Shown here: piece after piece, positions 27,440 through 32,594 of the stretch | How the letters are laid out: every line of letters starts with the position of its first letter | How positions within the stretch are numbered: position 1 is the stretch's first letter | Origin: Ideonella livida | GTDB taxonomy: Bacteria > Pseudomonadota > Gammaproteobacteria > Burkholderiales > Burkholderiaceae_C | Direction of reading: 5' to 3' | Length of the DNA: 64,000 nucleotides | Assembly: GCF_010499455.1 (NCBI RefSeq) | Contig: NZ_JAAGOH010000002.1 | Span: 62,001 to 126,000 of the forward strand | Notes under the pieces: model-generated | The model's database searches: none | Told to the model about the DNA's origin: nothing | What the model saw: the letters and a program-made list of their open reading frames with translations, nothing else | Made by a program: the position numbers and the translations under genes

Positions 27440-28237
27440 TCAGGCCTGGGCCAAGCGGGTCAGGGCCGTGGCGTCCAGCACATGGACGGTGTAGCCCTCC
27501 ACGCGGATCATGCCCTGGCCGCTGAAGCTGCGCATCAGCCGCGACAGGGTCTCCGGGGTGATGGCCAGCTGGGAGGCGATGTCCCGCTTGCGCATGGGCA
27601 GCTGCACCACGCTGGCCTGCCCGCAGCGGCCCAGCAGCCAGGCCGCCAGCCGGCCTGGTGCGTCGCGGTGCATCAGGTCATGGGTGTTGAGCGCCATGGC
27701 CCGGCTCTCGCCCGCCAGGGTGAGCAGCAACTGGCGCGACACCAGGGACTGCTCGTCCAGCAGCGCCATCAGAGGCTCGCACGGCAGCTCGATCACCGTG
27801 CTCGGGGTCATGGCGCGCGCGTCTGCGGTGTAGCAGGTGCCCAGCAGGCCGTTGCACAGGTCCAGCCAACCCGGTCCGTGCACATGGCGTTCGGTCCGGA
27901 AACCCCCTTCTTCCTGGCGGTGGCCCACGGCGACGTCGCCCTCGAGCACCAGCACCGGCCCCCGCGCCAGCTCCCCCTGGCAGAAGACCAGGGCCCCGGC
28001 AGGCAGGCGCCGGCCGCGAGCCACCTCGTTGAGCGCGGCGGCATCCTGGGCCGCCAGGTTGGCCCCCCCCAGCGCCGCCGCCCAGCCGCCGACATCGGGC
28101 AGCAGGTGGCGGGGCCCGGCGGGCAGATCGGCCAGCCCGTTCCCGGCCAAGGCGCGGGAACTGGCCCGCAGTCGGGTCAGCGGCGCGCGGTCCGGGGGCA
28201 GGACGGTATCGGACGGGCAGGCGGTCATCGGGTCCAT
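27440..28237 (-). CDS. Crp/Fnr-family transcriptional regulator
   Basis: A 265-residue regulator with a cyclic-nucleotide-binding-like beta barrel (about 65-165) and a C-terminal winged helix (about 180-255). The recognition helix MRKRDIASQLAITPETLSRL contains the E-x-x-S-R pattern that makes FNR-type proteins bind TTGAT half sites. The N-terminal cysteine cluster of FNR itself is absent (only one cysteine in the first 50 residues), so it is not an Fe-S oxygen sensor of the classic kind; a DNR/NNR-like heme or redox sensor is possible. ATG 28237 is preferred; 28309 is an alternative. It converges on the cupredoxin gene. Confidence 0.86.
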   Translation of the reverse strand: MDPMTACPSDTVLPPDRAPLTRLRASSRALAGNGLADLPAGPRHLLPDVGGWAAALGGANLAAQDAAALNEVARGRRLPAGALVFCQGELARGPVLVLEGDVAVGHRQEEGGFRTERHVHGPGWLDLCNGLLGTCYTADARAMTPSTVIELPCEPLMALLDEQSLVSRQLLLTLAGESRAMALNTHDLMHRDAPGRLAAWLLGRCGQASVVQLPMRKRDIASQLAITPETLSRLMRSFSGQGMIRVEGYTVHVLDATALTRLAQA

Positions 28238-28336
28238 GGGGATAGGCGTCTGAAGGCCCCAGGCAGCCCAGCAAGGCTGAGCCGTTCCCACCGGTCGCAC
28301 CGGCAGCAAGCCCGGTCTGTACCGCTGTTGCTACGT

Positions 28337-28517: not shown

Positions 28518-29960
28518 TCAGGCGGCTTCGTCCGCGGCCCCCACAACCCCGGGGGCGCCGACGGCGTCGGTCCATCCGGCCAGCGCCTGGGCATCGGGCA
28601 GCACGGCCTCTTCGTCCAGGTCAAAGACCGCCATGCTCTCCACATGCGCGGTATGCGGGAACATGTTGACCACCCCGGCCTGGCTGCAGCGGTAACCCGC
28701 CACATGCACCAGCAGGCCGGCATCGCGCGCCAGCGTGGCCGGGTTGCAGCTCACGTAGACGATGCGCTGCGGGGGCTGCCAGTCGGTGCGGCGCTGGACG
28801 CGCAGCCCTGCCAGGGCCTTGACCAGCGCAAAGGCGCCCTCACGGGGAGGGTCCACCAGCCAGCGGTTGGCCGGACCGTAGGCGACGATGTCCTCAGGCG
28901 CCAGCTCGAAGAGGTTGCGTGCGGCAAAACGCGTTTTGGCCGACAGGCCGTTGGCCTGCGCGTTCTCGCGCGAGCGCTGCACCAGCGCCTCGCTGCCTTC
29001 GATGCCCAGCACGCTGGCGGCCTGGCGGGCCAGGGGCAGCGTGAAGTTACCCAGGCCACAGAACCAGTCGATCACCTGGTCGCTGGGCTGCACCTGCAGC
29101 AGGCGAAGCGCCCGGCCCACCAGCACCTCATTGATCTGGTGGTTGACCTGGGTGAAATCGGTGGGCTTGAAAGGCATGCGCAAATCAAACTCGCGCAGGC
29201 GGTACTCCAGCGTCGGCCCCCCGGCATCCAGCAGGTGGACCGTGTCGGGTCCCTTGGGTTGCAGCCACCACTGCACGTCATGCCGGGCGGCGAAATCGCG
29301 CAGGCGCTGCACATCGTCGGCGCACAGCGGCTCCAGGTGTCTCAGCACCAGCGCGGTGACCCCCTCGCCGACCGCCAACTCAATCTGCGGCAGACGGTCA
29401 CGGGCTTGCATGTCACCGATCAGCGCCCGCAGCGGCATCAACATGGCGCTGACCTTGGGCGGCAGCACCGGACAGGTCTGGATGTCGGCCACGTAGCGTG
29501 ACTTGCGCTCGTGAAAGCCCACCAGCACCGTGCCCTTGCGGGCCACGTGCCGCACCGACAGGCGTGCGCGGTAGCGGTAGCCCCAGGTCGGCCCCTCGAT
29601 GGGCCGCATCATGCGTTCCGGGCGCACCTTGGACAGGTGCTGCAGATTGGTCTCCAGCACCCGCTGCTTGACGGCGACCTGCGCCGCAGCGTCCAGATGC
29701 TGCATCTTGCAACCCCCGCAGGCGCCCTGGTGCAGCCCGAAATGCGGACAGCCCGGTCGCACCCGCTGCGAGCTTTCGCGCCGGATCTCACGCACCACCG
29801 CCTGTTCCCAGCTGTTCTTGCTGCGTCCGACGGTGACCTGGGCTTCTTCGCCGGGCAGAGCGCCCTCGATGAAGACGACCTTGCCTTCGTTGTTGCGGGC
29901 CACGCCCTGTGCATCCAGGTCGAGGGACTCGACCTTCAGCCATTCATCCGCTTGTGTCAT
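28518..29960 (-). CDS. rlmD: 23S rRNA (uracil-1939-C5)-methyltransferase RlmD
   Basis: Uses S-adenosylmethionine to methylate U1939 of 23S rRNA, 480 residues. An N-terminal TRAM-like OB fold covers about 5-58 ([26 protein letters not shown]). An Fe-S cluster motif follows ([17 protein letters not shown] plus QTCPVL). The methyltransferase domain contains [17 protein letters not shown] (SAM binding), [12 protein letters not shown] and the catalytic cysteine in [13 protein letters not shown]. It is the last gene of the surE-pcm-nlpD series, 52 bp after nlpD, in the place where rpoS is expected upstream in many relatives. Confidence 0.95.
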
Positions 29961-30012
29961 GGCGCGGCATTATCGGCGGCCCGGCCATGCCCGCCGCCAC
30001 CCGCGATGCGCC

Positions 30013-30945
30013 TCAACGCGCCGGCAGGTACTTCGCCGGGTCCACCGGCTTGCCCTGGCGGCGCACCTCAAAGTGGAGCTTGACCCGGTCGGTATCGGAG
30101 CTGCCCATCTCGGCGATCTTCTGACCGCGCTTGACCGTCTGGTCCTCCTTGACCAGGAAGGTCTGGTTATGGGCGTAGGCGGTGAGGAAATTACCGCCGT
30201 GCTTGACGATGATGAGGTTGCCGTAACCGCGCACCCCCGAGCCCACGTACACCACCTGCCCATCGGCCGCGGCCACCACCGGATCGCCGGCCTTGCCGGC
30301 AATGGCGATGCCCTTGCTGAGCTTCTCGTCAAACGCGGTGAGCACACTGCCGCCAGCCGGCCAGGACCAGCGCAGGCCACCTTCGTCGGCTTCGCGCGGC
30401 ACCTCGCGGGCGGGCTCGGCGGCGGGCGGCTTGCCGGTGGCCGCCGGAGCTGCCGCTGCGGCCGTGGCGGCCCCTGGGGCTGCCCCCGGCTTTCCCGCCT
30501 CCAGGGGACGGGCCTCGATGGGGCGGGTCTCGATGCGCGTAGGCCGCACCGGGCTGACCTGCGGCTCGCCCGAAGGCGGCACCACACGCAGCACCTGACC
30601 GACCTCAATCAGGTTGGGATTCTCCAGGTTGTTCCAGCGGGCAATGTCCCGCCAGCCCTGGCCGGTCTCCAGACCGATCCGGGTGAGGGTGTCCCCCGGC
30701 TTGACCATGTACTCGCCGGGCTTGAGCACCACCGGCGCCGCCTCCACGTCGGCAGCCGAGGCGGGCAGCGCAGGACGGCCCGCCGCCGCGGGGCCGGTGG
30801 CCGGACGGGTGGCGCGCGGGGAGACAGCTTGGCGCTGCTCCACCGGCGCATCGGGTCCGGTGGAAGAGCAGGCCGTCACGGCCAAAAAGGTCAAGCAGCA
30901 GGTGGCGGCGCGCCACAGGCGCGGGTTGCTCGCAGTCGATGTCAG
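30013..30945 (-). CDS. nlpD: NlpD-like LysM/M23 lipoprotein, probable amidase activator
   Basis: Murein-associated lipoprotein of the NlpD family, 310 residues from the proposed start. The leader NPRLWRAATCCLTFLAVTAC ends in a lipobox with lipidated Cys. LysM (about 77-122) reads GEYMVKPGDTLTRIG. A proline/alanine linker precedes the LytM/M23 domain (about 190-310), which is degenerate like E. coli NlpD: KGIAIAG replaces the zinc-binding His-x3-Asp, while YAHN and LHFEVRRQGKPVDPAKYLP remain. So it probably activates an amidase rather than cutting murein. No ATG fits; CTG at 30945 has GGAGG five bases ahead, whereas TTG at 30894 would truncate the signal's charged region. Confidence 0.85.
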   Translation of the reverse strand: MTSTASNPRLWRAATCCLTFLAVTACSSTGPDAPVEQRQAVSPRATRPATGPAAAGRPALPASAADVEAAPVVLKPGEYMVKPGDTLTRIGLETGQGWRDIARWNNLENPNLIEVGQVLRVVPPSGEPQVSPVRPTRIETRPIEARPLEAGKPGAAPGAATAAAAAPAATGKPPAAEPAREVPREADEGGLRWSWPAGGSVLTAFDEKLSKGIAIAGKAGDPVVAAADGQVVYVGSGVRGYGNLIIVKHGGNFLTAYAHNQTFLVKEDQTVKRGQKIAEMGSSDTDRVKLHFEVRRQGKPVDPAKYLPAR

Positions 30946-30967: not shown

Positions 30968-31804
30968 TCAGGCGACGCCGGATTTTAGTGGGACGAACTG
31001 CACCGCCTCGCCCACGGTGCGGCGCCAGCCGTCCTTGAGCCGGTCCACGACGATCAGCACCTGGCCCAGGCCGTTGGGCGCGCGGGCCGGCGCCACGATC
31101 CGCCCCCCCACGGCAAGCTGCTCCATCCAGGCAAGGGGGATGTCCTCCCCGCCTGCGGCGGCGATGATGCTGTCGAAGGGGCCGGCCTCCGCATGCCCCA
31201 GCATGCCGTCGCCCGCCACCAACGTGCACGGCACCGGCAGTTGGAAGTGGCTGAGGTGCCGGCAGGCCAGCTCGTGCAAGGCCAGGAGCCGCTCCACCGA
31301 CACCACCGAGGTGGCCAGGGCGCACAGCACCGCGGTCTGGTAGCCGCAGCCCGTCCCCACCTCCAGCACACGCCCCAGGTGGCCCTGGGCGCGGGCGGTG
31401 TCTCCCAACATCAGCCACTCCAGCATGCGGGCCACGACGGAAGGCTTGGAGATGGTCTGACCCAGCCCGATGGGCAGGCTGGTGTCCTCATAGGCCTGGG
31501 CCGCCAGCGCGGAATCGACGAAGACATGGCGCGGCACATGGCTCATGGCCTGCAGCACCGGCGCGCAGGAGATCCCGTCGGCACGCAAACGCACGATCAT
31601 GCGCTGACGCACCGCCGCGGTGTCCAGCCCCAGGCCGGTGGGCGCCGTGCGGCGCTGCGCGTCGCGGGCAGCCTCGGCCAGCGGCCTTTGGGGCCGCAGG
31701 GGCTGCGGCCGGCGTTCGGCAGCGGCAGCCGCCGGCTGCAGACCGGCCGGAAAACGCGGTCGCTGACGGGGGGGGTCGCCGCTCACGGCGCGCTCCTGCC
31801 CCAT
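30968..31804 (-). CDS. pcm: Protein-L-isoaspartate O-methyltransferase
   Basis: Repairs isoaspartyl residues in aged proteins using S-adenosylmethionine, 278 residues. The core (about 66-278) matches the usual 208-residue enzyme: RMIVRLRADGI, HVPRHVFVDSALAAQAYEDT, LPIGLGQTISKPSVVARM, and the SAM motif RVLEVGTGCGYQTAVL. The first 65 residues are an extra arginine/proline/alanine-rich stretch, not part of the known fold and probably disordered; a downstream start without it is possible but no better ribosome site is evident. It follows surE by 13 bp and precedes nlpD by 22 bp. Confidence 0.92.
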   Translation of the reverse strand: MGQERAVSGDPPRQRPRFPAGLQPAAAAAERRPQPLRPQRPLAEAARDAQRRTAPTGLGLDTAAVRQRMIVRLRADGISCAPVLQAMSHVPRHVFVDSALAAQAYEDTSLPIGLGQTISKPSVVARMLEWLMLGDTARAQGHLGRVLEVGTGCGYQTAVLCALATSVVSVERLLALHELACRHLSHFQLPVPCTLVAGDGMLGHAEAGPFDSIIAAAGGEDIPLAWMEQLAVGGRIVAPARAPNGLGQVLIVVDRLKDGWRRTVGEAVQFVPLKSGVA

Positions 31805-31817
31805 GGGCGGGCGAACT

Positions 31818-32594
31818 TCAGACCGCCCCCATCAGACGACGGCGCCAACCGGGCAGCCCGGCATGATCGGTCAGGTCCACCTGCAGCGGGGTGATCGAGA
31901 TGCGCCCTTGGGCGATGGCGTTGAAGTCGGTGCCCTCGCCGGCATCCAGGGCCTCGCCGGCCGCCCCGATCCAGTAGAGCGGGTCACCGCGCGGGCTTTC
32001 CTGGCGGATGACCGGAGCGCTGGGATGGCGCCGGCCCAGGCGGGTGACCTGCCAGGGCAGGCTGGCGGCATCGGGCCGGTTGGGGATGTTGACGTTGAGC
32101 AGCCAGGGCCGGTCGCCGGGCGCCCGCATCTGCAGCGCCGGCAGCAGCGAACGCACCACGGCCAGGGCCACCTCGGCTGCGGCCTCCAGGTGGGTCCAAC
32201 CCTTGTCGACCTGCGAGAAGGCGATGGCGGGGATGCCGAACTGATGACCCTCCATGGCCGCGGCGACGGTGCCCGAATACAGGGTGTCGTCGCCCATGTT
32301 GGCCCCCTGGTTGATGCCGGAGACAACCAGATCAGGCCGCTGCGCCAACAGACCGGTGAGCGCCACGTGGACACTGTCGGTGGGCGTGCCGTTGACGTAC
32401 CGGAACCCGGTCTGCTCACCACCGGCGGCCTCCAGCACCGACAGCGGACGGTGCAGGCTCAGGGAGTTGGAGGTGCCGCTGGCGTTCTGCTCCGGCGCGA
32501 CCACCTCGACCTCGCCCAAGTTCCGCATGACCCGGGCCAGGGCGGCCAGTCCGGGGGCCAGGTAACCATCGTCGTTGGCGATCAGGATGCGCAT
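31818..32594 (-). CDS. surE: 5'/3'-nucleotidase SurE
   Basis: Stationary-phase survival nucleotidase, 258 residues, removing phosphate from nucleoside monophosphates. The metal site is at the N terminus, [16 protein letters not shown], with the Asp pair at residues 8-9. The motifs [16 protein letters not shown] and [16 protein letters not shown] with [10 protein letters not shown] complete the SurE signature. It is the first gene of surE-pcm-nlpD-rlmD and is divergent from the quinone oxidoreductase gene, with 108 bp between. Confidence 0.96.

Follow-up and report, generated by a model that had tools for sequence, protein, structure and literature searches.

Probable loss of rpoS from the nlpD-rlmD slot in Ideonella livida and its genus, one of apparently several losses in a single family

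Introduction

What became of rpoS in Ideonella livida? In beta- and gammaproteobacteria, RpoS is generally regarded as the master regulator of survival in stationary phase; many of these bacteria, according to an earlier note on this DNA, carry its gene directly after surE, pcm and nlpD. In the window, which is the whole stretch of 64,000 nucleotides that was analysed, the same note found rlmD in this place, and it proposed that rpoS was either lost or moved. The question is whether the gene still exists elsewhere in the genome, whether it ever stood in this slot, and how far its absence extends among the relatives.

Results

Gene order at the locus

The genes are transcribed from the minus strand in the order surE, pcm, nlpD, rlmD (Table 1). 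The distance that the earlier note had given between the nlpD stop and the rlmD ATG is exact, and its statement that rpoS is missing between the two genes holds as well, as no RpoS match is present at the locus in the 16 genus loci.

Table 1. Features of the locus in the window, in the order of transcription.
Feature	Position	Strand	Evidence and remarks
surE, 5'/3'-nucleotidase	31818..32594	-	SurE 351 bits, cut-off 295
pcm ORF, protein-L-isoaspartate O-methyltransferase	30968..31804	-	179 bits, just below cut-off 188; start uncertain
nlpD-like murein hydrolase activator ORF	30013..30894	-	best family NlpD, 198 bits, below equivalog cut-off 311; start uncertain
Junction without rpoS between nlpD and rlmD	29961..30012	-	52 bp
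Candidate -10 element of rlmD, GATAAT	29969..29974	-	8 nt before ATG; putative promoter
rlmD, 23S rRNA (uracil-1939-C5)-methyltransferase	28518..29960, ATG at 29960	-	NCBIfam RlmD 628 bits, cut-off 458

The surE start was placed by eye where the family match begins, within a longer ORF. The nlpD ORF opens at a TTG inside an apparent lipoprotein signal peptide (30895-30916, minus strand), and its likely N-terminal part is located in the neighbouring frame, from a GTG at 30916 (both by eye). This gene may have an odd start, or the assembly may contain an indel. An ORF for a Crp/FNR-type regulator is located downstream of rlmD (27440-28309, minus strand).

Sigma factors of the source genome and its genus

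The source genome is a 5.26-Mb draft of 104 contigs, 99.2% complete. The whole genome was searched for an RpoS-type sigma-70 protein, the check that the earlier note had suggested. Four proteins match the RpoS profile TIGR02394, at 281, 153, 59 and 21 bits; none of them exceeds the curated cut-off of 378.7 bits, and the best is RpoD. The sigma-70 region-2 model PF04542 finds seven proteins, none of which is RpoS. Four of these have NCBIfam identities as RpoD (912 bits), RpoH (397 bits, TIGR02392), FliA (301 bits) and RpoE (255 bits). The remaining three are a FliA-like protein (134 bits, below the cut-off of 201), an ECF factor of TIGR02943 (220 bits) and one further ECF-type protein.

A different sigma factor could have taken over the role of RpoS in the genus, although this appears improbable. 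Candidates would be the second FliA-like protein and the two ECF factors, and extra RpoD-like sigma factors are present in two genus genomes (G004 and G006). However, seven PF04542 matches in 5.3 Mb represent no expansion of the sigma-70 proteins, the class that was counted, that would point to a substitute. The extra proteins of G004 and G006 are two large sigma-70 proteins (L203, 1634-4231, in G004; L204, 474-2597, in G006). They were rejected as substitutes, as they match MzaA of the MZA anti-phage system best, with 495 and 410 bits below its cut-off of 800, and the source genome yielded no protein of this kind.

In the 16 genus genomes, no RpoS exceeds the family cut-off, including two assemblies of 2-3 contigs that are 100% complete (G005 and G006). 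With the RpoS of Rubrivivax gelatinosus as query, only proteins of at most 42% identity were found in the genus. The same query reads the RpoS of family loci at 60-80% identity (self aside), and that of 30 loci from six other families of the order at 47-53%. The nlpD and rlmD matches are at most 97 bp apart in 15 of the 16 genomes; in the sixteenth (G013, 80% complete, 510 contigs), no neighbouring nlpD was recognised. The absence is weaker evidence in the drafts G011, G012 and G014, because even RpoD was found there only in pieces. A further, partial match stands where a contig of G014 begins (C13) and could be the remaining part of the RpoD that is broken in this draft.

A move of rpoS elsewhere in the genome or onto a plasmid is highly unlikely: a gene could sit in a gap of a draft of 104 contigs, but the slot itself is closed, all seven PF04542 proteins have other identities, and no copy over the cut-off was found in this genome or in its genus. 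The choice between lost and moved that the earlier note had left is thereby decided for lost.

The genus may also have lost the gene more than once: the RlmD of one genome assigned to it, G015 (L195), groups with Rubrivivax in the RlmD tree. This placement could reflect a gene transfer or a genus that is drawn too wide. One single loss for all 16 genomes is likely but not certain.

Frequency of the absence in the family and the order

A threshold of E<=1e-86 was used for the wider search because the RpoD of these bacteria scores around 1e-83. At this threshold, which misses truncated or very divergent RpoS, a match is present in 161 of the 397 sampled family genomes (57 of 126 genera) and lacking in 236. 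In the order, 161 of 399 sampled genomes match, a count in which a few weak matches may be RpoD, as three non-proteobacterial control genomes also match at this level. Over the RpoS family's own cut-off are 120 family genomes and 156 order genomes. The gene is thus not lacking from this locus throughout the order, which the earlier note had named as an observation against its reading; in the loci read, rpoS is normally located beside nlpD.

Position of rpoS in related genomes

The RlmD of the window served to scan named genomes, and the genomes of the best 80 loci were each searched for RpoS. This protein occurs in 36 of them and was not found in 44; some of these 44 labels may be gaps, because no completeness is given for the 80 genomes and many of them are MAGs. 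The RpoS-positive genomes include Azohydromonas, Inhella, Roseateles, Pelomonas, Mitsuaria, Rubrivivax gelatinosus and six of eight Variovorax. Among the RpoS-negative ones are four Ideonella, Leptothrix, Sphaerotilus, Aquabacterium, Hydrogenophaga, Acidovorax and Simplicispira.

Of the 36 RpoS-positive genomes, 33 have rpoS between nlpD and rlmD. Two of the remaining three carry rlmD at a different locus, and in the third the contig begins at rpoS. The locus of R. gelatinosus (L152/L028) has the same neighbours as the one described here, in the order surE-pcm-nlpD-...-rlmD. It differs in that a 323-codon rpoS, 20 bp after nlpD and 45 bp before rlmD, takes the place of the 52-bp junction. In the 30 best loci of the family search, nlpD adjoins rpoS in every case and rlmD was seen in 22. 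The 30 highest-scoring loci of the order search come from six other family codes; nlpD again always adjoins rpoS, and rlmD is found within ~1.5 kb in none. As nlpD and rpoS are paired in the family and in six other family codes, this arrangement is old; within the family, rpoS is usually followed by rlmD. The slot between nlpD and rlmD is thus the ancestral position of rpoS.

The RpoS-negative genomes differ in what the slot now holds. In 20 of the 44, nlpD is located 4-164 bp before rlmD; in six, another gene lies between them; in the remaining 18, no nlpD was seen before rlmD, and three of these 18 loci extend less than 1.3 kb upstream. In five loci of the Hydrogenophaga clade (L064, L075, L080, L086 and L088, four of them titled Hydrogenophaga), nlpD and rlmD are 0.9-1.0 kb apart, or 2.8 kb in L080, and rpoS is lacking. 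The gene in this slot encodes a PolB-type 3'-5' exonuclease (PF10108; three of the five loci were scanned and gave 292-300 bits). It is unlikely as a replacement of RpoS, since RpoS-positive loci carry the same gene directly after rpoS (L123, L126, L148, L055/L179 and, in another family, L107). In the Hydrogenophaga clade, rpoS alone was therefore probably lost. In one MAG (L015), the slot is occupied by a gene for a periplasmic binding protein.

Four MAGs of the Rubrivivax clade (L031, L037, L053 and L068) retain only 4-13 bp without the GATAAT-type motif described below, unlike the window. In the Ideonella clade, the scar measures 4 bp in Ideonella paludis (L018) and 71-87 bp in L012, L014 and L016. 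Differing scars had been considered as proof of independent deletions, an argument that is weakened by the short scar of I. paludis: as scars vary inside this one clade, they may also differ after a single loss.

Number and direction of the changes

With RlmD alone (96 rows, quick method), the tree requires 10 changes of RpoS state; with SurE, Pcm and RlmD together (59 rows, 971 columns, careful method), it requires 9, with a bootstrap range of 9-9. The starred branches alone force five changes in both trees. The second tree unites the window with four Ideonella in a clade (100/99) that is RpoS-negative throughout, and the nearest named relatives of the window's genus in this tree are Ideonella (Sphaerotilaceae); in the RlmD tree, the placement of the window is not well supported.

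From these counts, gains cannot be distinguished from losses. That the RpoS-positive genomes share the slot beside nlpD argues for loss, and the changes of state would accordingly be read as losses. That rpoS was never present in this lineage and was gained by its relatives is compatible with the tree counts and with the 236 family genomes without a match, but is most improbable given that rpoS stands beside nlpD in RpoS-positive loci of the family and of six other family codes, and that repeated gain at a single site is less likely than repeated loss from it. Loss is thus the preferred reading, and related lineages seem to have lost rpoS several times independently.

The family of the source organism is mostly free-living. 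The RpoS-positive named genomes are larger (median of 5.4 Mb, n=36) than the RpoS-negative ones (4.5 Mb, n=44; Mann-Whitney p=3e-6). On supported branches, only five independent pairs are available (median p 0.5), and for this reason no relation between genome size and RpoS is claimed.

A conserved element in front of rlmD

The GATAAT in the junction is the only one in the window on either strand. A first count, of [GT]ATAAT no more than 30 nt from the initially assigned start, gave 37 of 81 loci, the window included. After the sequences had been seen, the pattern was widened to GA[TC]AAT. In 66 of the 80 named loci, it is located 5-9 nt ahead of an in-frame start codon of rlmD, against a mean of 0.15 of 80 in mononucleotide-shuffled sequences; GATAAT alone accounts for 35 of 80. 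The spacer from motif to start is 6-9 nt in these 66 loci. The motif precedes rlmD in 35 of the 36 RpoS-positive and in 31 of the 44 RpoS-negative loci.

Among the 66 loci, a G is found two bases before the motif in 88% and a T three bases before it in 64%, which resembles an extended -10 element. The GATAAT of the window lacks this upstream TG of most others. No conserved -35 element was found upstream of the rlmD motif, no base exceeding a frequency of 0.56 from -40 to -10 relative to it. From its sequence and position, the GATAAT looks like rlmD's own -10 element, and the rlmD mRNA is perhaps leaderless or near-leaderless. In the part of a report on Burkholderia cenocepacia considered here (PMC4603805), a TA-rich promoter motif is described directly before the start codon of leaderless genes. 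The putative -10 element of rlmD, 8 nt from the ATG, is similarly arranged.

The longer string GGATAAT was also followed on both strands of the 80 loci (L012-L091). An ATG mostly occurs 6-8 nt after it (28 cases, probably rlmD in most of them), and a second peak is visible at 23-25 nt (18 cases).

Discussion

We consider it very probable that rpoS was deleted from the nlpD-rlmD slot, most likely in the common ancestor of the genus, that no substitute is seen, and that rlmD keeps a -10-like element of its own. The ancestral order would have been surE-pcm-nlpD-rpoS-rlmD; in some lineages, a gene for a PolB-type exonuclease stood after rpoS and ahead of rlmD. The excision, most likely in that ancestor, would have left the 52-bp junction. 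The -10-like element just before the rlmD start would have survived in these 52 bp and would keep rlmD expressed; we propose that the excision is structurally tolerated because rlmD carries such an element. Stationary-phase and stress genes would now be run by RpoD together with other regulators.

We regard the loss as real throughout the genus as sampled, and as probably one of several in the family. On balance, we also favour the wider reading that RpoS is expendable in this one betaproteobacterial family and was repeatedly discarded, from the same slot and 5 to ~10 times, with rlmD's own promoter helping and no substitute sigma factor. If this is true, the family constitutes a natural experiment on the purpose of the general stress response. 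The several apparently independent losses, next to RpoS-positive sister genera, would provide matched pairs for its costs and benefits.

The window also contains a glycogen operon (glgB, glgX, glgC and glgA), whose regulation, as the earlier note had suspected, might differ from the textbook model. In E. coli, less glycogen is stored in rpoS mutants, and likewise in crp, dksA, hfq and other mutants, according to the part of PMC4154780 considered here. By analogy with E. coli, the loss of rpoS may affect the glycogen and stress genes of this organism, and the regulation of its glycogen genes must at least lack RpoS. With RpoS found in none of the 16 genus genomes and in less than half of the sampled family genomes (161/397), regulatory models from E. 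coli, such as that of glycogen storage, should not be copied to these bacteria without a test of their own.

The literature on rpoS with Comamonadaceae, Acidovorax, Ideonella or gene loss in Burkholderiales was covered through titles and openings of abstracts, mostly outside subscription journals, and none of the entries listed (15 of 70 for Acidovorax) reports these losses. Loss of RpoS in alpha- and epsilonproteobacteria is described in the portion of a review considered here (PMC7527412), which cites Chiang and Schellhorn (2010); in these two classes, as in the present case, whole lineages are without the proteobacterial general stress sigma factor. In contrast to those classes, the absences described here are scattered within one family, next to RpoS-positive sister genera, and the empty slot is still readable. 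Lineage-specific loss of rpoS is thus a known type of event; what merits further attention is its repetition at a single slot in one family.
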